Origin: Owenia fusiformis
Lineage: Eukaryota; Annelida; Polychaeta; Sabellida; Oweniidae
Direction of reading: 5' to 3'
DNA: 64,000 nt
Assembly: GCA_903813345.2 (NCBI GenBank)
Contig: CAIIXF020000009.1
Span: 30,104,740-30,168,739, forward strand
The notes under the pieces were generated by a model that had not been told where the DNA came from, ran no database searches, and saw only the letters and a list, made by a program, of their open reading frames with translations. Shown piece after piece: positions 8,576-32,734 of the stretch. Both the position numbers and the translations under genes were made by a program. Within the stretch, counting starts at the first letter, position 1; every line of letters starts with the position of its first letter.

Positions 8576-8705
8576 CAGGAATTTTTGAAAGTATATTTGA
8601 TCAATCTGCATCGTGAATACTGTCAAGTGCGAATTTCAAACTTCAAAATGGCGTAGAATCTAAACCGGGGGTCGGATTGCAATTTTGATTTCAGATCCAG
8701 ATTCC

Positions 8706-10497: not shown

Positions 10498-13400
10498 TCC
10501 GGATTCCTGAGGAAATTCTACCCCTAATTCATAACTCATACTTTAAAATTGGAGAACTTTTTATTTTGACCTACATTTCGGACACCATATCTCAAAAGTG
10601 GGTCAAAAAACTTATTGACGACAAAATGTTAACATTATTAGCACACTCTTTGCTACAAGTATACAAAATTTCGGAGAATATCATTGAAGTGTAGTGTCAG
10701 AATCGCAAAATAAAAAAAAACTATGAATTTGACCTAGATTTTGAACTAGGTATTTTGGTGTCCAAACTTTGAAGGAAAGTAGCTTTTGAGGTCCCCTTCT
10801 TCTATGGGCTTTCATTATGTTTAGCTGTACTCATTCTATATCTCGTATTTTTACAATTCAAAACATTATTCGGTCCAATTGATTTAACATGGGGCACCAA
10901 ATTTAGCGATTTTTGAGATCTCAAAACGCCATAACTTAAGAACAAGTAGTCGGATCGAAATTTGGTTTGCAGATCTAGATTTCTGAGAAGATTCTCCCCT
11001 TAATTCATAACTCATACGTTAAATTTGGAAAACTTTTTACTTTGGCCTACTTTTCGGACACCATATCTCAAAAGTGGGTCAAAATACTCTCTGACGGCAA
11101 AACGCTAACACTATTAGCATACTCTTTGCTACCTGTATACAAAATTTTAAAGCAAATCATTTAAATATAGTGTCAGAATCGCAAAAATAAGGGAAAACTA
11201 TAAATTTGACCTAGATTTTGACCTAGGCATTTTGGTGTCCAAATTTTGGAGCTAAGTAGCCTTCAAGGTCCCCTTCTTTAATAGGCTTTCATTATATTAA
11301 GCTGTAATCAGTCTATATCTCGTATTTTACACTTCAAAAAATCTTTTTTCCCATTGACATAACATGGGGCAGCAAATTTAGTGATTTTAGAGCTTTCAAA
11401 ACGCCATAACTTCCGAACAGGAGGTCGAATCAAAATTTGATTTGCAGATTCGGATTTCTGATAAAATTCTACCCCTTATTCATACCTCATACGTTAATTT
11501 TGAAGATTTTTTTTATTTTGACCTACTTTTGGGACACCATATCTCAAAAGTGGGTCAAAATACTTTTTGACGGCAAAAGGCTTACACTATAAGCACACTC
11601 TTTGCTACATGTATACACAATTTCTAAGCATATAATTAAAGTGTAGTGTCAGAATCGCAAAAATAAGAAAAAACTTTGAATTTGACCTAGATTTTGACCT
11701 AGGCATTTTGGTGTCCAAATTTTGAAGCTAGATGGCTTATGAGGTCCCCTTCTTTTAAAAGGCTTTCATTATATTTAGCTGAACTCAGTCTATATTTCGT
11801 ATTTTTCACTTCAAAAAAATCTTTTTTCCCATTGACTTAACATGGGCACCAAATTTAGCGATTTTTGAGCTTTCAAAACGCCATAATTTCCGAACGGGAA
11901 GTCGGATCAGAATTTGGTTTGCAGATTCGGATTCCTAATAAAATTCTACCCCTTATTTATAACTCAACGTTAAATTCGAAGATTTTTTTATTTTGACCTA
12001 CTTTTGGGACACCATATCTCAAAAGTGGGTCAAAATACTTTTTGACGGCAAAAGGCTAACACTATAAGCATACTCCTGGCTACATGTATACACAATTTCG
12101 AAGAATATAATTAAAGTGTAGTGTCAGAATCGCAAAAATAAGGAAAAACTTTGAATTTGTCCTAGATTTTGACCTAGGCATTTGTGTGTCCAAATTTTTA
12201 AGCTAGATGGCTTTTGAGGTCCCCTTCTTTTAAAAGCTTCCATTATATTTAGCTGAACTCAGTCTATATTTCGTATTTTTCACTTTAAAAAAATCTTTTT
12301 TCCCATTGACTTAACATGGGCACCAAATTTAGCGATTTTTGAGTTTTCAAAACGCCATAACTTCCAAACCAAAAGTCGGATTGAAATTTGGTTTGCAGAT
12401 TCGGATTCCTGGGATAATTCTACCCTTAATTCATAACTCATACGTTGAATTTGTAGAACTTTTTATTTTGACCTACTTTTCGGACACGCCATAACTTCCG
12501 AACCGGAAGTCTGATCGAAATTTGGTTTGCAGATCCGGATTCCTGACAAAATCCTACCCCTAATTCATAACTCATACGTTAAATTTGAAGAACTTTATAT
12601 TTTGACCTACTTTTGGGACAACATATCTCAAAAGTGGGTCAAAATACTTTCTGACGGCAAAAAGCTAACACTATTAGCATACTCTTGGCTACAGGTATAC
12701 ACAATTTCGAAGAATATAATTAAAGTGTAGTGTCAGAATCGCAAAAATAAGGAAAAACTTTAAATTTGACCTAGATTTTGACCTAGGCATTTGTGTGTCA
12801 AAATTTTTAAGCTAGATGGCTTTTGAGGTCCCTTTCTTTTATGGGCTTCCATTATGTTTAGCTGTACTTAGTCTATATCTCATATTTTACACTTCAAAAA
12901 AATCTTTTTTTCCATTGAATTACCATGGGACACCAAATTTAGCGATTTTTGAGCTTTCAAAACGATATAACTTCCGAACCGGAAGTCGGATCGAAATTTG
13001 GTTTTCAGATTCGAAATCCTGAGAAAATTTCCTACAAGACCAGTAGCCTGGACATTTAATTGGGAGAACCTTTTTTTGGACCTCGTTTTGGGACACTGAT
13101 ATCTCGAAATCGGTTTGAGATATCAAAAAACTAAATCGACCTGTTTTCCCCTACTTTTTTATGAGGAACACAATGAAAAAAACCCGGATTGAAAATATTG
13201 AAGGACGACCGAGAAAATTGAAAAAAGTGACAAAGTACTGGATTTGACCTAGTTCTTGACCTTTGACCTAGAAAAAAATTTGACCTAATTTCCCATCATC
13301 CCAGATACATTCCCTAGTTGATCATCTAAGCAGCTTAAAGTAAGCTCTTCTAGTTGGTGAGAAATCTGGGAAGGAGGAAGATTCTGAAAGAATAATAATA
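10498..13400. repeat. Satellite block 4, continuation after the transposon
   Basis: The satellite picks up at the base where it was cut by the foldback element and continues with six to seven monomers to the DR1-like module (13257-13269). The segment 12466-12900 is nearly identical to 4460-4900, showing that higher-order units have been copied. No gene is seen. Confidence 0.9.
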
Positions 13401-13504
13401 ACTAGACTTGGGAAATTGAACGAAGTTCAATTTCAGACTCCAGATCCAGACTTTTTTTAAGCCCAGTCATCTAAAATAAGCCGAGTCATCCAGAATAAAC
13501 TGAG

Positions 13505-13705
13505 TCATCCAGAATAAGATGGATGGATAAAACAGGAAGGTAGGATAGGATAGAATGGGAAGGAACGATAGGATAGAATAAGAAAGAAGGATAGGATAGA
13601 ACAGAATAGGAAGAAAGGATATGATAGGAGAGGATAGGAAGGATAGGAAGGAAAGGATACGAAGGAAGGATAGGATAGGATAGGATCAGATAGGAAGGAT
13701 GGATG
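13505..13705. repeat. Purine-rich GGATAGGAAGGA minisatellite
   Basis: About 200 bp of almost pure purine on the plus strand, in loose 5 and 10 bp units (GGATA, GGAAGGA). It replaces the GAGTAAGTAGCT array used in the first four higher-order units. The minus-strand open frame across it is a low-complexity artefact. Confidence 0.85.
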
Positions 13706-14385
13706 AATGAATTTTTCAATATTTTCTTCTCTACTCTTGACTTTCTATCAGAATAAATACTTTCTGACGGCAAAAGGCTAACACTATTAGCACACTCTTT
13801 CCTACCTGTATACAAAATTTTGAAGCAAATCATTTCAATATAGTGTCAGAATCACAAAAATAAGGAAAAACTATGAATTTGACCTAGATTTTGACCTAGG
13901 GATTTTGGTGTCCAAATTTTGAAGTTAGGTAGCCTTTGAGGTCCCCTTCTTTCATTGGCTTTCATTATTTCAAGCTGTACTTAGTCTATATCTCGAATTT
14001 TACACTTCAAAAAAATCTTTTTTCCCATTGACATAACATGGGGCACCAAATTTAGCGATTTTTGAGCTTTCAAAATGTCATAACTTCCGAACAAGAAGTC
14101 GGATCGAAATTTGGTTTGCAGATTCGGATTCCTTATAAAATTTTACTCTTAAGTCATAACTCATACGTTAAATTTGGAAAACTTTTTATTTTGACCTACT
14201 TTTCGGACACCATATCTCAAAAGTGGGTCAAAATACTTTCTGACGGCAAAAGGCTAACACTATTAGCACACTCTTGGCTACAAGTATACAAAATTTCGAA
14301 CAATATAATTAAAGTGTAGTGTCAGAATCGCAAAATAAGGAAAAACTTTGAATTTGACCTAGATTTTGACCTAGGCCCTGGACTG
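13706..14385. repeat. Satellite monomers
   Basis: Two monomers of the same satellite, the first entered part-way. The second has a long open frame (14062-14319) of the recurring repeat peptide type, not called a gene. Confidence 0.85.
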
Positions 14386-14680
14386 GATTTAGACCTAGAC
14401 TTGACTTGGACCTGGACATGTACCTGGACTTGGATTGAATGAGAAGGAAGAATAGGATAGAATAGGAAGGAAGGATAGGAAGGAAGGATAGATAGGAAGG
14501 GAGAATCATCCAGAATAAGATCATCTAGATAGAAAGGATAGGATAGACCTAAATTTTGATCTAGGTCCTGGACTGGATTTGGACCTAGACTTGACTTGGA
14601 CAAAACTGGACTTGGACCTGGACTTGGACCTGGACTTGAGCTTGACTTGGACCTGGAAATGGACTGGACTGGTATTTTTT
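14375..14680. repeat. GGACCTGGACTT and GGATAGGAAGGA composite minisatellites
   Basis: Two stretches of 6 and 12 bp GGACTT/GGACCT units (14385-14440 and 14560-14670) flank a purine-rich GGATAGGAAGGA stretch (14440-14545). The GACCTAGA word of the satellite appears to have been the seed from which the GGACCT units expanded. Confidence 0.8.
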
Positions 14681-14689
14681 TAATTTTAT

Positions 14690-15165
14690 TTCACTTTTCT
14701 TGACATTCTATGAGGGTACCATCAGATCGATTTTCCTCGAACTTTCAAAACGTCATAACTCCTGAATCGGAAGTCGGATATCAATTCGGTTTTCAGATTC
14801 GGAATCCTGAGAAAATTTCCTATAAGACTATAATCCTGGACATCGGATTCGGAGAACTTTTTTTCGGACCTCGTTTTCGGACACTGATATCTCGAAATCG
14901 GTTCGAGATATCAAAAAACTAAATCGACCCTAGCTTTCCTACTTTTTTATGAGGAACACAATGAAAAAAACCCGGATCGAAAATACTGAAGGACGACTGA
15001 GAAAATTGAAAAAAGTGACAAAGTACTGGATTTGACCCAGTTCCTGACCTTTGACCTAGATAAAAATTTGACCTAATTTCCGAGAAACTAGATACTGGAC
15101 CTAAATTAACCATATACAGGTCTTGACTCAATGTCTTCTAGTTAAGGAGAAAACGTTGGAAGAAT
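14690..15165. repeat. Satellite terminal module
   Basis: Single diverged monomer followed by the DR1-like module (15045-15057). No gene is seen. Confidence 0.85.
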
Positions 15166-17840
15166 AATAATAACTAGACATGTAAATTGAACAAGTTCAA
15201 TTTAAGACTCCAGATTTAATTCTTTTTTTAAGCTGAGTCATCCAGAATACTTGTAAGCTGAGTCATCCAGAATAAGCTGATCGAGTCAGCTAGAATTTAG
15301 ACATTTAGACAACTCTCCATTTTTTATCTTCGACTCCATTGGCTTAACATGGGGATATCATCATATCGACTTTTCGAGACTTCAAACCGCTATAACTATC
15401 TAACCAGAAGTTAGATTGTATTTTGGTTTAAAGATTCGGACTCCTGAGAAAATTCTACCCTTAATTCATAACTCATACATTAAATTTGGAGATTTTTTTA
15501 TTTTGACCTACTTTTTGGACACCATATCTCAAAAGAGGGTCAAAATACTTTCTGACGGCAAAAGGCTATCACTATAAGCACACTCTTTGCTACCTGTATA
15601 CAAAATTTCGAAGCAAATCATTAAAGTGTAATGTCAGAATCGCAAAAATAAGGAAAATTATGAATTTGCCCTAGATTTTGACCTTGGCATTTTGGTGTCC
15701 AAATTTTAAAGCTAGATAGCCTTCGAGGTCCCCTTCTTTTAAAGGCTTTCAGAATGTTAAGCTGTACTCAGTCTATATCTGGTATTTAAGACTTCAAAAA
15801 AATCTTTTTCCCTATTGACATAACACGGGGCACCAAATTTAGCAATTTTCGAGCTTTCAAAACGCTATAACTTTCAAACAGAAAGTCGGATCGAAATTTG
15901 GTTTGCAGATTCAGATTCCTCAGAAAATTCTATCCTTATTTCATAACTCATATGCTAAATTCGGAGAACTTTTATTTTGACCTACTTTTCGGACACCATA
16001 TCTCAAAAGTGGGTCAAAATACTCTTTGACGGCAAAAGGCTAACACTATTAGCACACTCTTTGCTACCTGTATACAAAATTTTGAAGCAAATCCTAAAAG
16101 TGTAGTGCCAGAATCGCAAAAATAAGGAAAAACTATGAATTTGACCTAGATTTTGACCTAGGCATTTTGGTGTCCAAATATTGAAACTAGGTAGCTTTTG
16201 AGGTCCCCTTCTTTTATAGGAATTCATTATCTTAAGCTGTACTCAATCTATATCTCGTATTTTACACTTCAAAAAAATCTTTTTTCCTTGACTTTCTATC
16301 AGGATAACATCAGATCGATTTTTCTCGAAATTTCAAAACGCCATAACTTTCAAACCGGAAATCGGATCGAAATTTGATTTAAAGATTCGGATTCCTGACA
16401 AAATTCTACCCCTTATTCATAGCTCATACGTCAAATTTGGCGAATTTTTATTTTGACCTACTTTTCGGACACGCCATAACTTTGGAACCGGAAGTAGGAT
16501 CGAAATTTGGTTTGCAGATTCAGATTCCTGAGAAAATTCTACCCTTGATTCATAACTCATATGTAAAATTTGGAGAATTTTTTATTTTGACCTACTTTTC
16601 GGACACCATATCTCAAAAGTGGGTCAAAATACTCTCTGACGGCAAAAAGCTAACACTATAAGCCCATTCTTTGCTACCTGTATACAAAATTTTGAAGCAA
16701 ATCCTAAAAGTGTAGTGCCAGAATCGCAAAAATAAGGAAAAACTATGTATTTGACCTAGATTTTGACCTAGGGATTTTGGTGTCCAAATTTTAAGCTAGA
16801 TAGCCTTCGAGGTCCCCTTCTTTTATAGACTTTCAGAATCTTAAGCTGTACTCAGTCTTTATCTGGTATTTTACACTTCAAAAAAATCTTTTTTCTCATT
16901 GACATAACATGGGGCACCAAAATTAGCGATTTTTGAGCTTTCAAAACGCCATAACTTCCCAACGAAAAGTCGGATTGAAATTTGGTTTGCAGATTCGGAT
17001 TCCTGAGAAAATTCTACCCTTAATTCATAACTCATAAGTTAAATTATGAGAAATTTTTATTTTGACCTACTTTACGGACACCATATCTCAAAAGTGGGTC
17101 AAAATACTTTCTGACGGCAAAAGGCTCTCACTATTAGCACACTCTTTGCTACCTGTATACAAAATTTTGAAGCAAATCCTAAAAGTGTAGTGCCAGAATC
17201 GCAAAAATAAGGAAAAACTATGAATTTGACCTAGATTTTGACCTAGGCATTTTGGTGTCCAAATTTCGAAGCTATGTAGCTTTTGAGGTCCCCTTCTTTT
17301 ATAGGCATTCAATATGTTAAGCTGAACTCAGTCTATATCTTGTATTTTACACTTCGAAAAAGCCTTTTTTCCCATTGACTTAACATGGGCACCAAATTTA
17401 GCGATTTTTGAGATTTCAAAACGCTATAACTTCCGAACCGGAAGTCGGATCAAAATTTTGTTTGCAGATTCGGATTTCTGAGATAATTCTACACTTATTT
17501 GATAATTCACACGTTGAATTTGGAGAATTTTTTATGTTCTGACCTACTTTTCGGACGCCATATCTCAAAATCGGTAAGAGTAATCAAAAAACGGTTTGCA
17601 TTACAGAATTAGCTTTTTTTCTAAGGAACATGATGAAAAAAACCCGGAGCGAAAATACCAAAGGACGACTGAGAAAACTTGTGAAATAGCAAAAAGAGAC
17701 GATTTGACCTAGTTCTTGACCTTTGACCTAGATAAACATTTGACCTAATTTCCCAGAAACTAGAACTCATTACCTAGTTGACTATGTTAGCAGATTTTAG
17801 GAAGTCCCTCTAGTTGCTGAGAAAACGCGCAAAGAAAGAA
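15166..17840. repeat. Higher-order satellite unit, later type, copy 1
   Basis: It starts with an inverted repeat of the AAATTGAACAAGTTCAATTT type and an AAGCTGAGTCATCCAGAATA duplicate pair instead of the GAGTA minisatellite, then has monomers ending in the DR1 module (17717-17729). The next unit begins about 2.67 kb later with nearly the same sequence. Confidence 0.9.
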
Positions 17841-19410
17841 TAACTAGACATGTAAATTGAACAAGTTCAATTTAAGACTCCAGATTTAATACTTTTTTTT
17901 AAGCTGAGTCATCCAGAATACTTGTAAGCTGAGTCATCCAGAATAAGCTGATCGAATCAGCTAGAATTTAGACATTTAGACAACTCTCAATTTTTTATCT
18001 TCGACTCCATTGGCTTAACATGGGGATATCATCATATCGACTTTTCGAGACTTCAAACCGCTATAACTATCTAACCAGAAGTTAGATTGAAATTTGGTTT
18101 AAAGATTCGGACTCCTGAGAAAATTCTACCCTTAATTCATAACTCATATGTAAAATTTGGAGAATTTTTTATTTTTACCTACTTTTCGGACACCATATCT
18201 CAAAAGTGGGTCAAAATACTCTCTGACGGCAAAAGGCTAACACTATTAGCCCACTCTTTGCTACCTGTATACAAAATTTTGAAGCAAATCCTAAAAGTGT
18301 AGTGCCAGAATCGCAAAAATAAGGAAAAACTATGTATTTGACCTAGATTTTGACCTAGGGATTTTGGTGTCCAAATTTTAAAGCTAGATAGCCTTCCAGG
18401 TCCCCTTCTTTTATAGACTTTCAGAATCTTAAGCTGTACTCAGTCCTTATCTGGTATTTTACACTTCAAAAAAATCTTTTTTCTCATTGACATAACATGG
18501 GGCACCAAAATTAGCGATTTTTGAGCTTTCAAAACGCCATAACTTCCCAACGAAAAGTCAGATTGAAATTTGGTTTGCAGATTCGGATTCCTGAGAAAAT
18601 TCTACCCTTAACTCATAGCTCATATAATAAATTATGAGAAATTTTTATTTTGACCTACTTTTCGGACACCATATCTCAAAAGTGGGTCAAAATACTTTCT
18701 GACGGCAAAAGGCTAACACTATTAGTACACTCTTTGCTACCTGTATACAAAATTTTGAAGCAAATTATTTAAGTGTAGTGTCAGAATCGTAAAAATAAGG
18801 AAAAACTATGAATTTGACCTAGATTTTGACCTAGGCATTTTGGTGTCCAAATTTTGAAGCTAGGTAGCTTTTGAGGTCCCCTTCTTTTATAGGCATTCAT
18901 TATGTTAAGCTGTGCTCAGTCTATATCTTGTATTTTACACTTCGAAAAAGTCTTTTTTCCCATTGGCTTAACATGGGCACCAAATTTAGCGATTTTTGAG
19001 ATTTCAAAACGCAATAACTTCCGAACCGGAAGTCGGATCGAAATTTTGTTTGCAGATTCGGATTCCTGAGATAATTCTACACTTATATGATGATTCACAC
19101 GTTGAATTTGGAGAACTTTTTATGTTCTGACCTACTTTTCGGACACCATATCTCAAAATCGGTAAGAGTAATCAAAAAACGGTTTACCATTCGTAATAAG
19201 CTTTTTCTAAGGAACATGATGAAAAAAACCCGGAGTGAAAATACCGAAGGACGACTGAGAAAACTTGTAAAATAGTGAAAAACCACGATTTGACCTAGTT
19301 CTTGACCTTTGACCTAGATAAAAAGTTGACCTAATTTCCCAGAAACTAGGCCTCATTACCTAGTTGACTGTGTTAGCAGATTTAAGTAAGTCCTTCTAGT
19401 TACCGAGAAA
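17841..19410. repeat. Higher-order satellite unit, later type, copy 2
   Basis: Close repeat of the unit starting at 15166, shortened by about two monomers, again ending in the DR1 module (19303-19315). Confidence 0.9.
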
Positions 19411-19439
19411 ACGTGACAAGAGAGAAAGAATAATAATAA

Positions 19440-19560
19440 TAAGAAAACCGGCAAAAGCAATAGACTCCAGATTTTCAATCTGGAGTCTAATAATAATAAT
19501 AATAAGAAAACTGGCAAAAGCAATAGACTCCAGATTTTCAATCTGGAGTCTAATAATAAT
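19440..19560. repeat. Two tandem ACTCCAGAT hairpins
   Basis: Hairpins at 19462-19488 and 19525-19551 have the same stems as at 8254. Both have one extra loop base (TTTCA), so they are a separate sub-lineage from the 21.2-21.5 kb copies. Confidence 0.9.
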
Positions 19561-19679
19561 AATAATAACTAGACTTTGAAAATTGAACGAAGTTCAATTT
19601 CAGACTCCAGATCTAGACTTTTTTAAGCCCAGTCATCTAAAATAAAACAAGTCATCCAGAATAAGCTGAGTCATCCAGA

Positions 19680-19940
19680 ATAAGATGGATGGATAAAATA
19701 GGAAGGTAGGAAAGGATAGAATGGGTTGGAACGATAGGATGGATGGATAAAATAGGAAGGTAGGAAAGGATAGAATGGGTTGGAACGATAGGATAGAATA
19801 AGAAAGAAGGATAGGATAGAACAGAATAGGAAGAAAGGATATGATAGGAGAGGATAGGAAGGATATGAAGGAAAGGATACGAAGGAAGGATAGATAGGAA
19901 GGATAGGATAGGATATGATCAGATAGGAAGGATGGATGAA
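19680..19940. repeat. Purine-rich minisatellite with 55 bp duplication
   Basis: GGATAGGAAGGA-type repeat. A 55 bp stretch starting GGATGGATAAAATAGGAAGG is present twice in tandem, nearly without change. Confidence 0.85.
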
Positions 19941-21140
19941 TTTTTCAATATTTTCTTCTCTACTCTTGACTTTCTATCAGGATACCATCAGATCGATTTT
20001 CCGAAATTTCAAAACGCCATAACTTCCGAACCGGAAGTCGGATCGAAATTTGAGTTAAAGATTCGGATTCCTGACAAAATTCTACCCCTAATTCATAACT
20101 CATACGTTAAATTTGGCGAATTTTTATTTTGACCTACTTTTTGGACACGCCATAACTTCGGAACCGGAAGTCGGATCGAAATGTGGTCTACAGATTCAGA
20201 TTCCTGACAAAATTCTACCCCTAATTCATAACTCATACGTTAAATTTGGAAACTTTTTATTTTGACCTACTTTTCGGACACGCCATAACTTCCGAACCGG
20301 AAGTAGGATCGAAATTTGGTTTGCAGATTCGGATTCCTGACAAAATTCTATTCCTAATTCATAACTCATACGTTAAATTTGGAGAACTTTTTATTTTGAC
20401 CTACTTTTCGGACACCATATCTCAAAAGTGGGTCAAAATACTTTCTGACGGCAAAAGGCTAACACTATTAGCACACTCTTGGCTACATGTATACACAATT
20501 TCGAAGAATATAATTGAAGTGTAGTGTCAGAATCGCAAAAATAAGGAAAACCTTTGAATTTGACCTAGATTTTGACCTAGGAATTTTGGTGTCCAAATTC
20601 TGAAGCTAGATGGCTTTTGAGGTCCCCTTCTTTTGAAGGCTTTCATTAAATTAAGCTGAACTCAGTCTATATTTCGTATTTTTCATCTCAAAAAAATCTT
20701 TTTTCCCATTGACTTAACATGGGCACAAAATTTAGCGATTTTTGAGTATTCAAAACGTCATAACTTCCGAACCAGGAGTCGGATCGAAATTTGGTTTGTA
20801 GATTCGGATTCCTGACAAAATTCTACCCCTAATTCATAACTCATACATTGAATTTGGAGCACGTTTTGGTGTGACCTACTTTCTGGACGCCATATCTCAA
20901 AATCGGTTTGAGATATCAAAAAAGTAAATCGACCCTAGCTTTCCTACTTTTTTATAAGGAACACAATGAAAAAAACCTGGATCGAAAATATTGAAGGACG
21001 ACTGAGAAAATTGAAAAAAGTGACAAAGTACTGGATTTGACCTAGTTCTTGACCTTTGACCTAAATAAAAATTTGACCCAATTTCCCACCAACTAGATAC
21101 TGAACCTAAATCAACTGTATAATGGTCTTTACTGGATACC
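19941..21140. repeat. Satellite block, last unit
   Basis: Monomers include three short copies in a row around 19995-20400 and end in the DR1 module (21050-21062). The longest repeat-type open frame (20246-20524, 92 codons) is here. This is the edge of the satellite field; gene A begins about 350 bp further on. Confidence 0.9.
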
Positions 21141-21204
21141 TTATAGTTACTGAAAAAACTCAAAAAGAAAAATAAGAATAATAAGAAGAAGAATAAGAAT
21201 ACTG

Positions 21205-21470
21205 GCAAAAACAATAGACTCCAGATTGACATCTGGAGTCTAATAAAGAAGAAGAATACTGGCAAAAACAATAGACTCCAGATTGACATCTGGAGTCTAA
21301 TAATAATAAAGAAAACTGACGAAAGCAATAGACTCCAGATTTTCATCTGGAGTCTAATAATAAGAAAACTGGCAAAAGCAATAGACTCCAGATTTTCATC
21401 TGGAGTCTAATAATAAAAAGAAAACTGGCAAAAGCAATAGACTCCAGATTTTCATCTGGAGTCTAATTAT
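21205..21470. repeat. Array of five ACTCCAGAT hairpins
   Basis: Stem-loops at 21216-21241, 21273-21298, 21330-21355, 21383-21408 and 21439-21464 have a period of 53-57 bp. All have the stem AGACTCCAGAT / ATCTGGAGTCT. Loops are TGAC in the first two and TTTC in the last three, so the array grew in at least two steps. The last hairpin lies just past the presumed splice donor of gene A's large exon. Confidence 0.92.
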
Positions 21471-21491
21471 CATATAACATAATGTGTTCAC

Positions 21492-23747
21492 CTCTGCTAA
21501 TGCTGGGTGTTTCTTTAAGAGGTCATCATGTTTTTCTCTCTTTCCACCCTCCTCATAAGCTGACAGCAAAAGTGTTAGCGAATTAACATCTTGAGGTGAT
21601 TCTTCAACACTTGTTTCTAGTACTTCAGTAGCTTCCTCAATATCACCCTTTTGTTGGAGGACACAACCAATTGTATTCATAGTATCTATGTTTTTGCTCT
21701 CAAGTACTCTATTTTTCAGTTTGTCCAGAAAAGGCTTGCTTATACTGTCATCCTCAATATACACATTACACAGAATATGCATAATCAGTTGCGTTGTCTC
21801 AGAGCTGACATATGTTTCATTTGCTTTTTCCAAGTACTCTTTTGCCTTGTCTTGATTTCTCATCAGTATATAGGCAATTGCATTGTTCAGATCTGATGGA
21901 TCATACAGAGATGCTTGTCCTTTAAGTATTTCAAGAGCTGATTCTTCTAAATTCTCTTTCTTGATAGCATTTGGGTCAGGTTGATTGTGGAGAGATGTCT
22001 TTTCTCCTTCCTTCATCTTTTCCACTGTTTCTTCTGAAGTTTCTACTTCAATAGCATAGACAAGTGGTATAGCAGATTGGTAGTAGCGCAAAATGAGATC
22101 TTCGCTAAAGGTTGTTTGGTCAGTGCCATCTGGGACAAGGAGCTTTGGTAACAATTGATCTTTTATCTCATCTACTTGACCATTGTTCTCTGCATAACAT
22201 CTTAATCGTATTTCTGCAGCTGTGGACAGGATCATTTGTAAGTCATGCATTATGGTACTATTCAGTCCTTTTAGTTCTTGAATGTCCCATATGCAATCTA
22301 CGTTGCCATTCATCAGTTGGAGTAAGTTGTTCACTACAACACTTGGCAAGCGATAAATTTCTCTCTTTACATGAAGTGATTTTTTCTTTATCAGTTTTTT
22401 CTTGTATTTACTGTCATACATTTTTTTTATACAGGAGTGTTTGACCAAGTCTTCCCTGAGCTGATTTTTGATAAGCTTCAAAATTGTTTGTCTTTGATTC
22501 TTATTGTTTTTGAATTTTTCTTTCAAATCTTTCTCAACAGTTGTGTCTCCAAACAATGTTGTGAAGTCCCCTTTAAAGAAATATAATTCCTTTTCCAGAT
22601 CACTTTCTTTCATTTCATCATAATTCGCTATAAATGCAGCCTTGGTATTTGTCAACCGGAAGCAGTTATTTTGAGGACTGACATAATAGGGTGTTTTGTT
22701 GGCATTTGGCATGAGTCCATCAAAAGAGATTCCCTGTTTTATTTTTACATAACTTCGTAAGTCAAGGTACCAGTCCTTTGTTTTGTCATTAAGGTCAGAT
22801 TGATTCAATGTATCTATTGACATAGCTGGGAGGACAGTTTCGCCAAATGCTAGGAACTTCAGGTGAAGGATCATAACCATCTTGGTTATGGTTTCTTTGT
22901 ATTCAGGCTGCATTTCCAAATCATCTGAGTTCTGCACTACAGCAAATTCTACATCAGAGAAAGGTGTTGTTTCTTTTCTTGAGAATGACCCAAATGCAAT
23001 TAGGGCAAGGTCATCCTCATGGAAATCAAGAAGATCCAAAGTCTGCTGTACCAAACTTGATATGAATGTTTTCATTTCCTGAAGGATCCATTTAAAAATT
23101 TCTCCAATTTGTTTAATTCTCTCTGCCTCACATTCTTTCCTTTCTTCTTTTGAGATTCCAGTTTCGTAACAGTTACAGGACTCGTTTCTGTCGATCTGTA
23201 AGATTCTTTCCTTTAATTTACTTCGTATTGCTTCAAGTTCATCTTTATTCTTCGTCTCATTTTCCGAGTACTTAATTGGAATTTCTGTTTTAAGACAATG
23301 CTTGAAGAAAAGTTTGAGAGCAGATCTTTTTTTCTGTTCATATTTAGATAACTCATCATTCAGTTCATCTCTACACTGCACTAACTCATCATTCAGTTCA
23401 TCTCTACACTGCACTATTCCTGTTTCATATATGCTAATAGCTTTCACATATTCCATTGGATTCCTTTCTACTTCACCAATCTCCTTATGGAGATTACCAA
23501 GTTCCCTCAGCAGCTGCACATGTGTTTGTCTATTACTTCGCCATTCCTCTTTAGATACCTCTCCTGGATTCTCTTGTTTATTGTTTATCAAATTTTTGTT
23601 TATTGATGGGATTTCTTTAAGTGACTTGGTTATGTCAAGTTCTCTTTTCTTGAGTTGGTCAAGCTTTAGTGTTATGTCTGGATATTGTTTTCTTAACATT
23701 TGGATGTATGTTTGTAGTTGATTGAGAGCAGATTCATTATTAGACAC
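21492..23747 (-). CDS. Gene A exon 3: nucleotidyltransferase (DUF294/GlnD-like) and TPR-like region
   Basis: 752 codons, opening after a TATATTACAG acceptor (phase 0) and ending at a GAG|GTGAAC donor. Residues 1-240 are helical and charged. Residues 250-271 carry the nucleotidyltransferase signature: GS at 253-254, then SDVEF with D265 and E267 as metal ligands; D312 (MSIDT) is a possible third ligand. Residues about 430-540 match the helical domain that follows DUF294-type transferases (KREIYRLPS, then WDIQEL and AAEIRLRCY). The C-terminal 130 residues contain TPR-like helix pairs (GCVLQQKGDIEEATEVLETS). The polymerase-beta superfamily moves nucleotides onto proteins, RNA or small molecules; the substrate here is unknown. 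Without splicing the frame would run 31 codons into the hairpin repeats, ending at 21396. Confidence 0.9.
23351..23416 (-). repeat. In-frame 33 bp tandem duplication inside gene A exon 3
   Basis: Two adjacent, essentially identical 33 bp copies encode QCRDELNDELV twice in the coiled-coil part of the protein. The frame is kept. The near identity points to a young duplication. Confidence 0.9.
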
Positions 23748-24514
23748 CTGTAATATATAGAGTTAATTTAATTGGAGGTTTCTGATAAAGGGTATATCTG
23801 AGGGAAATACAATGTATCAACGTGAGGTTCCGTAGAGTCCGAGGGTTAATATATATTTACCAAAGGATATTTCCCTGTATTAAAAATCGAGCATTTAATA
23901 ACTGATTTATTCTATACTTAGTAGATTATGAGGGTTTATAGTCAAGTCCCCTGGCTAAGTATCTACTTTCTGAATTTGTGACATGATAGATCTGATGAGC
24001 AGGTGATATCAGTGGGTGATATTTATATCACCCACTGTTATGTTATAATACATGTATGCCTTCCATGGCCAACTAGTCATGCTTGCCTTCTATGGCTAAT
24101 TAACTGTATTTCCCTTGGTGACTCATTTAAATCAATGCTTACAGTGGATCATTTATTTCTAATTTATGTGACTTTCTCTTTCACAAATCTGCTATAGGTT
24201 GCATTCTTTATATCTCATTTTGAATTATATAATATCTTCCTTTGTCTATTTTATAACGTATATTTGCAATATATATTATTCTGTTTGGTAAACCTTTGAC
24301 TAAGTTGCTCTGTGACCATATCCAAAATGATAAATTAACTAGCAAGAATTAAATAAAGTATTTTAAAGCCATCTTGAACTTCAACATATTTCTTAAAATA
24401 TAGAGGAACTCTTTAATTTCAAAGATCTCTTAATGTCGCAATCTTTTTTCTTTATCTGTACTATGTATCCTCGGGAGTACTGACACTATCTCAGGAGTAA
24501 TTTTCTGAATACAT
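23748..24514. other. Gene A intron 2, unique part with a perfect hairpin
   Basis: AT-rich intron sequence without a coding signal. A perfect palindrome lies at 24010-24037: stem CAGTGGGTGATAT with a TT loop. Confidence 0.7.
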
Positions 24515-25215
24515 ACCATGTTGAAATGGACCATGGCCATACCATGGTATACCATGGTATGGCCATGGTATACCATGGTATATGGCCATGAAATGCAATG
24601 AAATACCATGGTATTACCATGGCCGATCATGATCATTAAATGGCACCATTATATTTCATGGTTAACAGCGTGTTTTTAACATGGAGTTTTCCATTGAAAA
24701 AATACTGCAGAATACAGTATTTCGTGGTCAGAAACCATCAAATGCAATGATATCATGGTCAAGTTCTCGACCATGATATCATTGCATTTGATGGTTTCTT
24801 GACCATGACATCATTGCATTTGATGGTTTCTGACCATGAAATACTGTGAAACAGCAGTATTTTTTCAATGGGAAACTCCATGTTAAAAAAGCGCTCCCGA
24901 CCATGAAATCCAATGGTGCCATTTAACGATCATGATATACCATGGTATACCATGGTCAATTAACATGTAATTTTGTATCTAAAAAATACCACCGTTTCAC
25001 AGTATTACATGGTCAAATACCATCAAATGCAGTGATATCATGGTCTAGACATTCAACCATGATATGCAGTGGAGCCATTTAATTACCATGATCTACTATG
25101 GTATACCATGGTCACTATACTTAAAATTTTGCATTTAAAAACACTGTTATTTTGCAGTATTTCATGGTTGCAGACCATCAAATGCAATGATGGATGCAAA
25201 CCATCAAATGCAATG
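24515..25215. repeat. CCATGG/ATACCATGGTAT-rich repeat with a 225 bp inverted repeat
   Basis: Dense copies of the self-complementary words CCATGG and TACCATGGTA (24530-24625, 24935-24955). Between 24668 and 24893 a large inverted repeat has arms starting TTAACATGGAGTTTTCCATT and a centre of duplicated CATCAAATGCAATGATATCA words. Open frames across it consist of Pro-Trp-Tyr-His-Gly runs and are artefacts. Confidence 0.85.
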
Positions 25216-25504
25216 AAGTACAGTCAAGATGTTTAACCAAAGACTGGAGGTTGGACTTACAAAATATTAAGTTTATCTCCTATTTTACCGACAAAAGTCA
25301 AATAAAAGTAAAGCATATTTATTTACCCAAAATTTTTTGTTTCTAGGGTTATTAACTTAATTGTTCATCATAGAAATTAATTTATTAAATAAATGAACAA
25401 AAGTATATAAGGTTGTAATTTTGATGAATATCAGAATCACTAATTATAATAATTTGGTTATCTAATTAACATTTATTAATAAAGATATTTCATGTAAAAA
25501 TACT
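25216..25504. other. Gene A intron 2, unremarkable AT-rich spacer
   Basis: I see no coding signal, hairpin or repeat in this stretch. Confidence 0.6.
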
Positions 25505-26460
25505 TTTTGAACATGGTCTTTCATTGTATTTCACTGCATTGCAAGAAAGACCATTGCATTTCATTGCATATCATGATCAATCATTGTATTTCATTGCATT
25601 TCATGGTTAAACGTGGTATTTCAATGCATTTCATGATCCATTTCAACTCTGATCAATTTTAGACTTGACACTCTTCTTAGAGTTCTTTTTAGCAATGAAA
25701 TACCATGGTATTTGATGGTCAGGTTTGACAATGAAATGCAATGAAATACAATCAACCACGAAATGCAATGATATGCCATGATAAATGATAGTTATGACTT
25801 TGGCAATGAAATACCATGGTATGACCATAGTATTTGATGGTCAGGTTTGACAATAAAATGCCATGAAATACCACCAACCATGAAATGCTATGATAAAACC
25901 ATGATAAATGAGAGTTATGATTTTGGCAATGAAATGACACGGTATGACCATGGTAATTGATTGTCACACGGTACAATGAAATGCCATGAAATGTCATCAA
26001 CCATGATATACAATGGTAATACCATGGTAAATGATGGTCAGGAACATGGCAATGAAATACCATGGTATGACCATGGTATTTGATTGTCACATCTTATAAT
26101 GAAATGCCATCAACCATGATATACCATGGTAAATTATAGTCAGGAACATGGCATTGAAATACCATGGTATTTGATTGTCACACCTTACAATGAAATGCCA
26201 TGAAATGCAATCAACCATGATATACCATGGTAATACCATGGTAAATGATGGTCAGGAACATGGCAATGAAATACCATGATAATACCATGGCATTTGATGG
26301 TTAACTTTGAACATGAAATACCATGAAACATGGTATAACATGATATACCATGGTATGCCATGGTCAAAAATTGACCAAAAAACATCATTGCCACCATGGT
26401 CAGAGTTGATGGTAATTTCATGGCAACCATGGTATACCATGGTATCATGGTTTACGTTTA
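25505..26460. repeat. CCATGG array with about six 100-125 bp tandem units
   Basis: After a stretch of short TTTCATTGCATTTCAT words, units begin with GGCAATGAAATACCATGGTA at about 25690, 25799, 25925, 26047, 26149 and 26260. Each contains a GATGGTCA or GATTGTCA word and a distal ATACCATGGTAA word. Because CATGG words are palindromic, the array can form many alternative stems. Confidence 0.85.
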
Positions 26461-27208
26461 AACATGGTACTCTTCACAAACCTACATGGCTCAGTAAAAT
26501 TTTGGAACGCATTTTTCTTCTCTTGTGACTGGTTTTATAATATAATTGTTAATATATATGGCCATTTTTAATGAATGAGTAAATACAAGATAATACTGTA
26601 GTTATATGTACATGTATGTAATCATGATGATTGACATAGGCACATAAACTTTTGTAGCGAAAGATAGATGTCGTACTTGTGGTAGGTTTTGAGTTAATGG
26701 CCAATATTGAAATATACAAGTGAATTTCTCAAACTGGATTTGTTAGTTTTTATAGTAAATATATAACACCCGCTCACTTCAGATATCAATTATATTCCCG
26801 CATATTATTTACCTATATAACACTACTAAGTATGGAATAAATGCAGTATATTTCATATGTGAAATATATGTTAACCTATACAATTTTGCTAAAAATGAGG
26901 CATTATTCAACTGTACTTCCACCTGTTTACATGTCTAATAATGTTCAAAATGACTAATGTTTAGTTAAACATGTTTTTCAGTTGTAATTGCTACTTTATT
27001 TGCTGTTTTTTTTCTTGTTTGGTATCAAATTAAAATGAAGCATTAAAGTGTAATTTGATATATTAAAAAATAGATGAAGGTCAAAAATAGTACTTAAGTG
27101 TGCAAGTCATATATGCACACACTATTACAGAACAAAGCAAATGGTAGCAAACACAATGAAGTAATACAGTAAATTTGATGCTGATATTTTCCCTCTAATT
27201 TAGGGAGC
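26461..27208. other. Gene A intron 2, AT-rich spacer
   Basis: I see nothing beyond short low-complexity AT stretches. Confidence 0.6.
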
Positions 27209-27500
27209 ATTTCAAAAGATCGATATCAGAAAATTAACTGTATTTCAACAGTTTGATATAAACTTAGGATTCTACAGTGACATACAATACAAGAGATAAT
27301 CTCATACTGATACTGTACAAAAATACAGATTGGAATAATTACAAAAAATTTACTGTATTACATATTATGTAAGATAATGTGTTACTTTAACGCAATGACA
27401 CTTATCAACATTTCTCAAACATAGTTATGAGGGAGGAGGGAGGGGCATCACAGATTTACTGTCAAATACAGTTAATTTTCCAACATCGATCTTTTGAAAT
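27209..27500. repeat. MITE-like element with about 42 bp inverted repeats
   Basis: The left arm at 27209-27251 (starts ATTTCAAAAGATCGATATCA) and the right arm at 27460-27500 (ends ATCGATCTTTTGAAAT) are inverted copies with a few mismatches, enclosing about 210 bp without an open frame. No target duplication is obvious. Confidence 0.75.
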
Positions 27501-27952
27501 ATTGATCCTATATGAACAAGTACACATTTATATCCATATTCTGTCCATAAGTGTCATATACTGATAAATCATCTATAGTATACATAACACTATGATTATA
27601 CTATGGACATATAATGCTGCCCAATAAATGATGACACAATCAAACACCCCATGATAATAATAAACATGCTATTTAAGTGAGTTGTGAAATCTATCTAGAA
27701 TAGTGAAAGATAATTATTACTTCTTGTACATCAGTGAAAAACTTTATAATATGGTAACCTGTTATTAACTAGAAACATATTTTTCTCATTTACATACATG
27801 TAGCAGGATAAGAATTATTTTGAGATAACAGGCATGTATAGAAAGCTAAAATCATTCAAAATGGCATATGATGTTGTCAAGTGCAATTCAATTACATTTC
27901 AATATAGCTCTTGAGATATTTTTGTAAGAGATAATTTAAAAGGACTTCTTAC
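27501..27952. other. Gene A intron 2, unique part
   Basis: Plain AT-rich intron between the inverted-repeat element and exon 2. I see nothing in it. Confidence 0.6.
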
Positions 27953-28219
27953 ATCATTCTGTGCTTGTTTTTCCTTGTCTTCAAGATATCTCTCGTGTTC
28001 CTCTACTAGTTGCCTCTGTTCCTCCTCCTGCCTTCTTGCCTCTTCTACCCTTTTTGCTGCTTCTTCCTCTACCCTTTGTCTTTCTTCTTCTGCTCTCTTT
28101 CTTGCTTCATCAGCCCTTTTTCTTTCTGTCTCGAAATGTATTTCATCTTCTTTTGATTGATCCTTCACGCTCTGTAGTAACTGTGATACCTCTTCATCCA
28201 AGGTCTTGAGAGAAAGGAG
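27953..28219 (-). CDS. Gene A exon 2: charged coiled coil
   Basis: 89 codons between a TTACCTTCAG acceptor and a GAT|GTAAGA donor, both phase 0, so it joins exons 1 and 3 in frame. The peptide is an almost continuous Glu/Arg/Lys helix (for example RADEARKRAEEERQRVEEEA), typical of a long coiled coil or single alpha helix between a RING and an effector domain. TRIM proteins have RING, B-box and coiled coil; no B-box cysteines are seen here. A coiled coil would let the protein pair and bring RING domains together (inference). Confidence 0.88.
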
Positions 28220-28770
28220 CTGAAGGTAACATAGAATATATGTTTGATTAAAAAGGCAACACATTCACATATATTATATAAAAACATCATACATCTAATC
28301 TAAACTATCAAAATGCATAATAACAGTTATATAAAAAGAAAATTTATCATTCTGTTTTTGAAAAAAATATTTTAATGGCTAAGAATAAGGCCATGGTAAT
28401 CACCTTCAGTTATGGTCAACATGATCTTGTTATCAAATTGAACATACCAGTATATCTACTTCATTTATTTTCTCAAAGTAGTCAATCTTTAATAAATATA
28501 ATTGAAATCTAATTTGTCATTTGAATTTCTAGTTGAGAAAGAAATAGGGGTATCATTAAAAGAAAATATATTGCAACTGCTGTTAATGTCAAGATTAATC
28601 AGGACTAATGCAATATAGCATTTAAAGCATGATAGTACACAATTAAGAGACTTTTATAAATCTGTGCAATTAAGAAATTCAGAACTCTCAAGTTTGCTCT
28701 TATTATTTAATATTGTTTGATGGCTTTTTTGCAGGTACATTGTGTGTTGTGATTTATCATTAAGGTTATC
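28220..28770. other. Gene A intron 1, distal part
   Basis: AT-rich intron sequence. No coding signal or repeat is recognised. Confidence 0.6.
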
Positions 28771-29375
28771 TAGGCCTCAAAGGTTCGATATTGGATAACT
28801 AAGCAAGTCTCTTTTTCTAAGGGGAGGCATCAAAAGTTGATATCGGATATCTAGGCAAGTCTCTTTTTCTAAGGGGAGGCATCAAAAGTTGATATCGAAT
28901 AACTAAGCTAGTCTCTTTTTCTAAGGGGAGGCATCAAAAGTTGATATCGGATATCTAGACAAGTCTCTTTTTCTAAGGGGAGGCATCAAAAGTTGATATT
29001 GGATATCTAAGCAAGTCTCTTTTTCTAAGGGGAGGCATCAAAAGTTGATATCAGATATCTAGGCAAGTCTCTTTCTAAGGGGAGGCATCAAAAGTTCAAT
29101 ATCGGATATCTAGGCAAGTCTATTTTTAAGGGGAGGCATCAAAAGTTGATATCAGTTATCTAGGCAAGTCTCTTTCTCTAAGGGGAGGCATCAAAAGTTG
29201 ATATCGGATATCTAGACAAGTCTCTTTCTAAGGGGAGGCATCAAAAGTTCGATATCGGATATCTAGACAAGTCTCTTTCTAAGGGGAGGCATCAAAAGTT
29301 CGATATCGGATATCTAGACAAGTCTCTTTTTAAAGGGGAGGCATCAAAGGTTCGATATCGGATCGAAAACTTCAT
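28771..29375. repeat. 51 bp minisatellite, about 12 copies
   Basis: AGGCATCAAA occurs at 28825, 28876, 28929, 28981, 29033, 29083, 29134, 29186, 29236, 29287 and 29338, giving spacings of 50-53 bp, with a weaker copy at 28772. Each unit contains AAGTCTCTTTTTCTAAGGGG and GTTGATATCGGATATCTAG, with one or two GATATC sites. Copies differ at few positions. Confidence 0.95.
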
Positions 29376-30109
29376 AAGTTTATTTTTGAGTTTTACCCCT
29401 CTCCCCTCAAAAATTAATACTATAAAAGTTGATTGAGGACAAAATGTGTTTATGTTGGATCAATGCCATGGAAACAAAGAAAGATCCTATTTATTTTCCC
29501 TAGCCAGCTCTACCTTTTTAAAGCTGTGGTTAAAGAATCATTCAAAAAGTGCTCAGAATGGTGAAAAATGATTTTAATGATTTTAAAAGAATCTTAATCA
29601 GTACTAATTAAATGCTTTGAAATATCATGATATAATTTTTTATTTTACTTTTCTTTGATGTTTTGGTGAAATACTTCAAGATATGTACTTCAAGTTTTTC
29701 TATCTGTTTATTTTATGATCACTTGATAAATGTCATTTATGATAAAGGTGCAGACGATCACATGATAACGTTTACAAGGTCACGTGAAATAAAACAACAT
29801 AGAGTATTAGGCCAACAATTGTTCACAAACCTGCCACCATAGTTGATAAAATACCATAATTCATGAAAACGTTAAATAAAACTTTAAAAAGCAAATCAAA
29901 TCCCTAATTACAATGAAAGAAATACAAATATAAATGAAATGTTTATAGATCTGAAGATGCTGGCAAAGTTATAGATCACAGTATATACTGTATGAGATAC
30001 TCCAGGAATGCTCTCTACAACATGTATCTTTATCTCGTTTATCTTAGTTTCCTTTATAGCCTGTTTCAAAAGTTGCAAAACGAAAGATTGTTCAACATTT
30101 GTTTCTCCT
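29376..30109. other. Gene A intron 1, unique middle part
   Basis: No coding signal. I see nothing beyond AT-rich sequence. Confidence 0.6.
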
Positions 30110-31310
30110 TCAAAGAATGACTGGGTGGCCAGGTGGGTTATATATATTTTACAATTGGATCCAACAGACCAAGTGGTCCATTATTTTGCAGGAGTGGCAC
30201 ACAGATTTGCGCTAACATACTATCCTATTGCCCAGAGGGTTCTTTTATTGCTTCACTAATTGCCAGTATATTGCTGCCTTATGGGTTTGAAAATTGCCTG
30301 TGCCCAATCGCATTATGGTCCAGAACCTCATTCATTGCTGGTGAGAAAATTAGTCAAACACTCCTCGGCACTGATAAGGATCTTTTGATGATCCCCGTCA
30401 CATCGTAAACATCCGCTGGCCTACGTGACCAATAACTCGTAGTATCAGCGGAGTATAGTTTATGGTCCGAGATATGGCTGATAGACTATGATAATTGCCC
30501 AATAAATTGAATCTCCCAATTTAAATTGCTTGTTTAAATTCCTTCGACAATTAATAACTGTTATTTCATAACATAATACAAGAGAAAATGCATGAATTAA
30601 AAGAGATATAGGCATGAAATGGATCATTTAATCTGGTGTGAACTGTGTAAAATGTTGATGTTCTGGTGAAAATCGAACCAACTGAAAACGCTCATTTCAT
30701 GTTAATTCCTGCCGATTCCACTCTAATTTGAGTTGATTATGAAACATAAAAGCACTATATGTACATCCAAAACAATAAGCTTTTGAAACAGATATGGACA
30801 AATTATGGCTAAATCAGGGTTTTATGGAGAATCGACATTAGCAACATGTGGTTACTTTGGTTGCTATGAGTGTTCTCAGTAATTGCTTTACTACAAGTCG
30901 TAGCGTAAATTAAGCGGGAAATTCAAAAAAATAAAAATTAAAAAATCGTCAGAGTATTAATCTCTTGAATATACTCAAACATATTATTACAAAGGTACCC
31001 ACTACCTTGTGTGGAGGGTAGGTGAACTGCCGAGATAGGAAAATATACAGTCCAATCTAACATATAGCAATATTAGCAATTAGTGATCCATTTGCTATAC
31101 TTCATTTACTTTAGACTGGACAAATGTATATTCTTTTGCCCAAATGTCTTTTTATCATAATGTCAAAATACATATTTAGAGGCAGACAATCAATTAATGG
31201 AAATCTTGCCACCCCTGCAAAATATGGACTCACCCACTTGGTTTCTTGGATCAACTTGCAAAATATATATAACCAGCCAGGTGACCAGATTTCTAACGTT
31301 CCTAGTAGGG
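30110..31310. mobile_element. Possible MITE or other element with about 100 bp inverted repeats
   Basis: 30115-30215 and 31205-31305 are inverted copies. Shared words include GGTTATATATATTTT, GACCAAGTGG/AACCAAGTGG and TATTTTGCAGGAGTGGCA (GGGTGGCA in the other arm). Arms match at roughly four bases in five. No coding capacity is seen between them. The two open frames over the arms are shadows of this repeat. Confidence 0.6.
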
Positions 31311-32539
31311 GTACCAACTTTCAAAGTTGCACATTTTCCCTAATATAGTAACTAATTGACCTGTCGAGCACTAAATAGACATAGCCTCCCAAGTGTAGAC
31401 TACGGTACGAATATTTAAACATTTTCATTTTTATTTAGAACCTGTGAGCACTTTTTAAAATAATTGGCTAATTTATCAATATCGTAAAAAAACTAAATGA
31501 TTACCTGCTGGTTATACAAGATATCCTCTGAATAAACATGAAACGGACTGAATTCCTAGTAAGTTTACTTTTACACAGAATACACTTACGATGACATTTA
31601 ATAGTTGCTTGATTTATTGTCTGAGTGATTGACAGGATATCAGTGTTTGTTTTCTATGATGGGGATTTCTACTAATATTTAACAAATCTGGAAGATTTGT
31701 TTATATATTAAGGATGCATAAATGAAATGTCATTGCCAATTTTGTCTGACGATTAATGTATGATGTACAATCTTGATTTATTACCTAAGAGACAGAATAT
31801 CAATGTTTCTTTTGCCGGTTGGTTTATTGGTAGATTAGTTAGTTGCTTGTTTGCTTGATTGGTTGGTTGTATAACTGGTACATTGAGTTGGAGGTCTGTT
31901 GGGCGTTTTGAGGTATAAAATGAAAAAATCAAATTCTTAACCCTGGTAGGTACCCAGTCCCCATGCTACCCAGTTACCCATGGCTTAAAGTCTTCAGGAA
32001 TTTCAGGAAATTTCAGGAAAAAATGGACCAAAATCTGACCCTATTGAGTTCAATACAAATCTGGGTTTATTTCTAGAAGGGGGGGGGGGGGGTAGGTGGT
32101 CAAACAAGAGTTATTAAATAAGGTCATATTTGATTTTTTCCTATGAAAATACTTTTTCTTCTAAATTTTATAGTTTTTGTAATGAGTCTACATTACTCTT
32201 AAAAAGCACTCAATTAAATCTCTTTTCCCAAAATTTCTTAAGAGGGAGGACCCACCCAAATCACCGCTCACTTGGCCCGCATCTTTCGCCATTAAATTTT
32301 CAGGAAATTTGAAAGTTGTTGCTTTAAGCCATGGTTACCCATTCACCTGTTTTTTTTTTATACAAACCCTTAATCTCCTTCATGAAAATCATAATTTTAA
32401 ATTGATTAAAACAATTAATAGCCTAATATGGGACAATAATTCTAAACAATATTCATTTAGTTTGATAAGCAACAGAATTGTTGAACAATGAAATACATGT
32501 AGTCTTATGTTTAAATGAATTTTTTCTCTTGGTACTCAC
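31311..32539. other. Gene A intron 1, proximal part
   Basis: AT-rich intron with a run of about 14 G near 32080-32093 and TTGGTTGGTT-like short repeats near 31815-31870. No coding signal is recognised. Confidence 0.6.
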
Positions 32540-32734
32540 CTTCAACTGCTCCACTTCTTCAGGCACTTGACTTTCCTTTTTGCACTCGGGACAGTTGACA
32601 AGTCCATTTAATGATTTATTTTCTTTAATGAGATCTTGAATGCACCCCAAACAGCAAATATGCTCACAATCCAATGTCTTTGGTTCTTTTGGTGTGTTTT
32701 TACACGACACACAACAAATACCTCCTTCCTCCAT
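32540..32734 (-). CDS. Gene A exon 1: start codon and RING finger
   Basis: 65 codons from ATG at 32734 to an AAG|GTGAGT donor in phase 0. Residues 7-50 form a RING-type zinc finger: CCVSC as the first pair, CEHICCLGC with the Cys-x-His core, and a final CPEC pair. RING fingers recruit E2 enzymes and act as ubiquitin ligases (family knowledge). This is the N-terminus of a protein that continues with coiled coil and nucleotidyltransferase exons. The start is chosen because it is the only Met upstream of the RING and the upstream frame is not otherwise supported; a further untranslated exon upstream is possible. Confidence 0.88.

Follow-up and report, generated by a model that had tools for sequence, protein, structure and literature searches.

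Why would an animal gene place a nucleotidyltransferase behind a ubiquitin-ligase-type RING finger? This question is raised by a gene on the minus strand of a 64,000-nucleotide stretch of the Owenia fusiformis genome (the window; G000:C9:30104740-30168739 of the 498-Mb genome). The original prediction read three exons here, encoding a RING finger, a long charged helix, a DUF294/GlnD-like nucleotidyltransferase with its helical partner domain, and a tail of TPR-like helices. We found that the protein does not end with this tail; the gene runs on through a fourth exon and an array of coiled-coil exons to an NHL domain. It is a member of a multi-copy family with recurring exon order and strand, in which the enzyme and coiled-coil exons are conserved and the NHL exon is not. 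The reading we favour, with a probability of about 0.4, is that the gene encodes a TRIM-NHL-derived ubiquitin ligase that would sense a variable ligand and modify it or a partner by both the RING finger and the nucleotidyltransferase.

Exon 1 (32540..32734, on the minus strand like all features of this gene) starts with ATG and encodes, by phase and translation, 65 residues with a C3HC4 RING finger (Pfam zf-C3HC4, 28.1 bits; cut-off 21). Exon 2 (27953..28219) encodes a charged helix of 89 residues, and exon 3 (21492..23747) encodes 752 residues with N-terminal helices, the nucleotidyltransferase, the helical domain and TPR. The three exons are free of stops and bounded by AG/GT, with phase-0 junctions, and the same arrangement recurs in order and strand in the paralogues, so that both the three-exon model and the assignment of all four parts to one gene were borne out. 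The nearest paralogue, P2 (locus L002 with its flanks), keeps the donor of exon 1 and the splice borders of exon 2, the latter with an 18-nt in-frame insertion relative to the window gene. Between the two genes, the ratio of nonsynonymous to synonymous substitution rates (dN/dS) is 0.35 in exon 1, 0.45 in exon 2 and 0.21 in exon 3. With approximate borders, the nucleotidyltransferase core of exon 3 covers residues ~240-345 (22713..23030) and the helical partner domain residues ~346-600 (21948..22712). The helical domain is common to the chlamydial relatives described below, through which (DUF294_C in L051) it is tentatively assigned to the window protein, although DUF294_C was not among the Pfam matches of that protein at E up to 1. 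The TPR helices (residues ~614-742; 21522..21908) are recognized by TPR_8 at residues 689-720 (30.7 bits, Pfam cut-off 25.7) and by consensus TPR structures at residues 658-741. An extra exon was also considered in intron 1, where positions 29590-30522 and P2 share 83% identity; frame-breaking gaps throughout mark this block as non-coding.

Position 21492 is a splice donor, and the gene continues past exon 3. Because every nearby paralogue examined has a splice donor at the end of this exon, we compared its surroundings across the paralogues. In P2, exon 3 is followed by a 21-residue exon and then by 96-nt exons repeated in tandem every ~206 bp, each encoding 32 coiled-coil residues. The window gene has a 21-residue, phase-0 exon 4 with proper splice borders (106..168), which matches exon 4 of P2 and L005; its dN/dS against P2 is 2.36, over 21 codons only. 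Between exons 3 and 4 lies a 21.3-kb intron (169..21491) made up mostly of tandemly repeated sequence, with satellites of 476 and 133 bp and shorter repeats of 12 and 42 bp. Beyond the window, the coiled-coil array of the gene contains 15 intact 96-nt units (G000:C9:30090752-30087489, minus strand). The terminal NHL exon (G000:C9:30080981-30080184, minus strand; 266 codons, ending at C9:30080184) stands, together with a 19-residue exon, in the downstream part of the gene, 45 kb downstream of exon 3, and matches PF01436 at 54.7 bits (Pfam cut-off 20). The array units evolve as protein: the ratio of nonsynonymous to synonymous changes (N/S) is 0.28 over the 15 units of the window gene (p = 1e-6) and 0.45 over 22 units of P2 (p = 6e-4). 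Coiled-coil exon arrays were also seen at G000:C7:36436036-36438226 (minus strand) and G000:C39:504-4855 (plus strand), with no nucleotidyltransferase exon seen nearby.

A count of paralogues gave a multi-copy family with 22 close nucleotidyltransferase exons, defined by at least 43% identity. On the same strand, 10 of the 22 have a RING exon at most 40 kb upstream (p = 4e-18) and 12 have an NHL exon at most 60 kb downstream (p = 1e-19); the chance expectations per gene are 0.005 and 0.009, respectively. Both counts rest on lists of ~150 scored candidates for each domain and were unchanged when further RING and NHL matches on the same contigs were added. Eight of the 22 have both exons in range, and at least six genes (the window gene, L002, L004, L005, L007, and L009) have RING, nucleotidyltransferase, array, and NHL. 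Some of the misses are contig ends (L003, L008), and the NHL counted for L020 is a distant match (34%) that may belong to another gene. Since order and strand recur in the paralogues, splice borders are conserved and dN/dS is low, the association of these exons exceeds chance. Three loci (L017, L019, L020) form a sister branch of the RING-type cores; their frames start with MGN, a myristoylation-like start, followed by STDTEALFERKETSTNTPVLPQK-type repeats and not by RING. Probable pseudogenes of the family lie at G000:C8:2236355-2243893 and G000:C9:11972635-11973604 (both plus strand), where NHL copies are broken and two RING copies contain stops.

The NCBIfam GlnD model matches exon 3 residues 205-305 with E = 1.6e-7, whereas the Pfam matches, which cover residues 240-291, stay under their cut-offs (Polbeta, 20.0 against 26.9; NTP_transf_2, 19.5 against 21; DUF294, 17.7 against 21). 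The same genome has at least 53 matches to PF03445 (DUF294), all listed ones over the cut-off. It also has ~50 more distant nucleotidyltransferase matches; the ten examined share the nucleotidyltransferase-helical-TPR arrangement and lie in long open frames. Alignment of exon 3 places the GS motif at residues 253-254 and D-x-E at 265/267, both intact as predicted. In a survey of 44 loci found by profile, which represent 42 genes (two pairs of loci being the same gene), GS is kept in 43, D-x-E in all 44 including the window, and the Asp of a G-x-SFD motif in 43. Conservation does not point to a third catalytic Asp within residues 240-330; it favours Asp343 of G-x-SFD, a candidate for the third catalytic carboxylate that falls in a poorly modelled part of the structure predictions. 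The Glu of a GET motif was considered for this role and dropped because three of the 14 bacterial loci, two of them the same gene, have Gln there.

These residues bear on an alternative in which the nucleotidyltransferase is a pseudoenzyme, a fold that binds a nucleotide or partner and acts as a switch without catalysis, and RING is the sole enzyme. The motif of GlnD and GlnE is D-x-D. That the window motif is D-x-E, that the third Asp is only a candidate, that the window protein lies below the DUF294 cut-off and that one locus (L033) has lost both GS and the SFD Asp would all suit such a module. However, GS, D-x-E and SFD are each kept in 20 of 20 members of the RING-type clade despite divergence to ~43% identity, and dN/dS against P2 is 0.17 over the nucleotidyltransferase and helical domain. 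We regard the pseudoenzyme as unlikely and the DUF294/GlnD-like nucleotidyltransferase of the window gene as probably active.

The fold was compared by means of a model of the core of the chlamydial relative L039. Its nearest structures are DrrA (Z 9.9 and 9.5) and then GlnE (Z 9.1 and 8.0), with aminoglycoside transferases (Z 6.5) and MNT (Z 5.2) lower; Foldseek also ranked DrrA and GlnE first (E = 0.01). A profile from the animal cores alone finds DrrA in PDB with E = 6e-4, and the structural-alignment identity of matches of the DrrA/GlnE type is 10-15%. GlnD, GlnE, and DrrA transfer a nucleoside monophosphate to protein targets. As the top fold matches modify proteins, protein nucleotidylylation is proposed for the window gene. 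In PADLOC, the window exon weakly matches the candidate-defence family PDC-S09 (22.6 bits, E = 2.4e-5).

A profile built from 13 animal cores found at least three bacterial relatives, in a Parachlamydiaceae assembly, in another chlamydial and in one gammaproteobacterial. The contig scan for relatives used two short patterns, and its counts are thus a lower bound. Relatives of the nucleotidyltransferase-TPR core were detected in 31 of 232 Chlamydiae genomes (E up to 1e-8, best 4e-77). None of 108 pattern matches in viral contigs was a relative. All five chlamydial relatives scanned with Pfam have TPR and DUF294 over the cut-off (32.3-36.2 bits). One of them (L049) has an F-box and one a methyltransferase domain; DUF294_C is over its cut-off in one (L051, 25.0; cut-off 22.5), below it in three and not listed in one, and L051 also has SidM_N over its cut-off. 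No NHL or coiled-coil array was seen in these five. Visual inspection suggested an OTU domain in L048, for which Pfam gave no support at E 0.01. A quick tree was built from 40 rows, after one duplicate and three loci lacking the search motif had been removed from the 44. One branch (100) sets off the 20 RING-type cores and another (97) the bacteria; long branches were flagged, and the direction of transfer is not given by the tree. Beside the gammaproteobacterial nucleotidyltransferase, L041 8117-10663 appears by eye to encode a protease/TPR effector-type protein.

In contrast to the enzyme exon, the NHL exon changes rapidly. For pairs within the chromosome-7 and chromosome-9 groups, dN/dS is 1.0-2.1 in NHL and 0.09-0.41 in the nucleotidyltransferase of the same pairs; between L004 and L005, the nonsynonymous rate (dN) is 0.001 in the enzyme and 0.093 in NHL. 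Between groups, the NHL dN/dS is 0.42-0.68. When changes were counted by Fitch parsimony on FastTree trees, NHL N/S was 2.15 in the chromosome-9 trio (p = 0.004) and 1.36 in seven chromosome-7 copies (p = 0.025), and nucleotidyltransferase N/S in the same groups was 0.27-0.39. Five or more nonsynonymous changes fall on 28 of 260 NHL codons, and the hypervariable codons flank the same strands, immediately before and after them, in all six blades. At 30 loop positions N/S is 4.0 (14 synonymous and 208 nonsynonymous changes), compared with 0.56 over the remaining 230 codons.

Because the ten gene copies had themselves supplied these 30 positions, the pattern was retested on held-out blades and on other clusters. 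Among 20 positions predicted in blades 1, 2, 3, and 5 from blades 4 and 6, with blade anchors set by eye, 15 fall among the 18 hypervariable of 250 (p = 3e-17). The same positions give N/S of 6.6 against 0.68 elsewhere in four single-exon TRIM genes of chromosome 2, and 3.2 against 0.72 in four NHL genes of chromosome 11. Since these two other clusters give the same contrast, the predicted variable face is a property of the NHL repertoire of this genome, of which the nucleotidyltransferase genes are one branch. At least 145 NHL matches were found in the genome; one lies within an open frame of 3750 codons (G000:C3:4363824-4364483, minus strand).

Both ends of the window protein resemble TRIM-NHL proteins. 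After the multi-exon family, its best RING and NHL matches are single-exon genes of ~640 codons, the RING being 37-46% identical to single-exon TRIM-NHL genes (38% to one of them, E = 1e-11) and the NHL ~50%. Two of the single-exon genes (L071, L072) have RING, B-box and NHL over the Pfam cut-off. When their B-box and coiled-coil parts were searched by tblastn, the best E in the window was 0.19; in P2, covered without interruption from RING to NHL, the best matches (E = 0.05) lie beyond NHL. Downstream of the window gene the best E was 0.011, ~5 kb beyond the NHL stop, in a search that did not cover the 13 kb from exon 4 to the array (C9:30091501-30104739). The window gene thus appears to have TRIM-NHL ends without B-boxes in the parts covered, as in Malin. 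The B-box-like stretch past the NHL stop is itself weak (C9:30075291-30075368, L027/L028; E = 0.011) and has a counterpart in P2 (E = 0.05).

In model animals, TRIM-NHL proteins bind RNA via NHL, and the NHL face might instead read fast-changing partners of the animal itself, such as transposon or germline RNAs or gamete and self markers, which would make the protein a regulator in the germline or in genome conflict rather than a pathogen sensor. RNA binding by relatives and the very large number of NHL copies would suit this role, but no tie to the germline or transposons was observed; neither was a direct tie to microbes. We consider it improbable, to the same degree as the pseudoenzyme. Far less probable is the production of a diffusible nucleotide signal as by cGAS or OAS: both the Pol-beta superfamily fold and a variable sensor of antiviral type in front of it would suit such a role, whereas the best profile and fold matches are the protein-modifying DrrA and GlnE with HEPN-MNT lower, and no cGAS, OAS or CD-NTase chain is among the best 50 rows of each list, although a missing row is not decisive. 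Least probable is that RING, nucleotidyltransferase and NHL are separate neighbouring genes or that the window copy is decaying, for although the 45 kb from exon 3 to NHL, the 13 kb not covered between exon 4 and the array and the 21-kb satellite intron would accord with this, all borders are in phase 0, order and strand are repeated in the paralogues (p ~1e-18 and 1e-19), and the exons lack stops, with exon 1 and the array exons under purifying selection.

The sequence places the DUF294/GlnD-like nucleotidyltransferase-TPR exon and the coiled-coil exons, an array that can expand, between RING and NHL in a gene that the favoured reading derives from a TRIM-NHL ligase. The NHL propeller, with loops that vary between paralogues, would capture a variable ligand, most likely microbial or from a mobile element. 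The long coiled coil would assemble the protein into dimers or larger bundles, and once assembled, it would have its RING finger and nucleotidyltransferase next to the captured ligand or next to a partner held by the TPR. Either would then be ubiquitinated and also given a nucleoside monophosphate, adenosine (AMP) or uridine (UMP), on a side chain. The immune-type role suggested earlier gains support from the fast evolution of the NHL face. Exon order, homology and the selection contrasts are observed; the role itself, with immunity as the purpose and ligand capture, assembly, ubiquitination and nucleotidylylation as the functions, is what we infer.

Several points weigh against this reading. 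The architecture is read from genomic sequence and the functions are proposed from it, and the remaining close copies have neither RING nor NHL in range, or only one of them. Over 9 units of the L005 array, N/S is 0.58 and not significant (p = 0.08). An AlphaFold model of the window protein (four sequences) was too poor to be used, with a predicted local distance difference test score (pLDDT) of 44.7. The fold comparison consequently rests on the 206-residue L039 core (pLDDT 59.1), whose first half is better and whose residues ~104-187 are mostly poor, and Foldseek gave no match with E < 0.001 for this model. Over all ten NHL copies, N/S is 1.12 (p = 0.17), so that the whole domain is not significantly above 1. 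The synonymous rate (dS) of NHL is far below that of the nucleotidyltransferase for the same pairs (0.05 against 0.55 between the window gene and P2); therefore gene conversion or exon exchange has happened, which distorts the ratios. The variable NHL positions are taken to form one face from the repeat pattern and not from an NHL structure.

A broader reading, possible but doubtful, is that the animal has an immune-receptor repertoire, parallel to those already known, of hundreds of NHL propellers with a hypervariable ligand face, one branch of which is coupled via the extendable coiled-coil rod to RING ubiquitination and, simultaneously, DUF294-type nucleotidylylation with AMP or UMP. The natural substrate of this enzyme may be in the ubiquitin system, because the same core adjoins an F-box in chlamydial symbionts of amoebae. 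To our knowledge, few animal immune receptors concentrate sequence variation on one binding face; if the favoured reading is true, a ubiquitin ligase with a variable NHL propeller would join them, and population sequences would already allow its variable-face signal to be tested. Nucleotidylylation of proteins serves in bacterial regulation and as a pathogen weapon, as in GlnE and DrrA, respectively. Its use by an animal ligase sharing the chlamydial core would, if true, link host defence and symbiont effectors directly. If the anatomy reflects function, the gene family would represent a previously unrecognised type of immune sensor with a built-in enzyme and a fast-evolving, likely binding face. 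The tandem coiled-coil exon array is in addition a clean example of a protein rod lengthened exon by exon.

Upstream of exon 1, a block at 33458-34978 is 95% identical to the region upstream of P2, compared with 85% for exon 3; it may represent a promoter, a tract of gene conversion or some other element. A cadherin-type gene, oriented divergently from the RING gene, has exons on the plus strand at 36695-48217 of the window and perhaps as far as 61903. Three of six tested exons have cadherin matches, all under the Pfam cut-off.

How does this gene compare with known systems? No account of its architecture or of variable NHL faces was found in our searches of the open-licence literature. The earlier description of the gene as unlike any standard pathway holds to that extent, but the order F-box-DUF294-TPR is known from NEX2 of Neochlamydia (PMC4209131), and an F-box occurs in L049. 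HEPN-MNT toxin-antitoxin systems and DUF294/HEPN fusions share a Pol-beta nucleotidyltransferase beside a HEPN-clan helical domain; the HEPN-MNT components are described as separate small bacterial proteins without TPR, RING or NHL (PMC3710099). The protein nucleotidylyltransferases DrrA/SidM, GlnE and GlnD are nearest by profile and fold, and differ in their low identity, in the D-x-E motif of the window protein and in their other domain company. TRIM2/3/32/56/71 are TRIM-NHL ubiquitin ligases of subfamily C, and Malin/NHLRC1 lacks B-boxes (PMC3503706). These proteins likewise begin with RING, continue with a coiled coil and end with a six-blade NHL, whereas the window gene, without a B-box in the parts covered, has in addition the nucleotidyltransferase-TPR exon, the coiled-coil array and hypervariable NHL loops. 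The chlamydial relatives are matched to NEX2 by architecture and not by name; NEX2 is described with F-box, sometimes OTU, DUF294 and TPR (PMC4209131). Unlike the window gene with its RING, these relatives carry an F-box or a methyltransferase domain, and the bacterial and animal cores stand on opposite sides of a tree branch. Nevertheless, the two share the nucleotidyltransferase-helical-TPR core, placed in both the window gene and L049 behind a ubiquitin-ligase-type domain.

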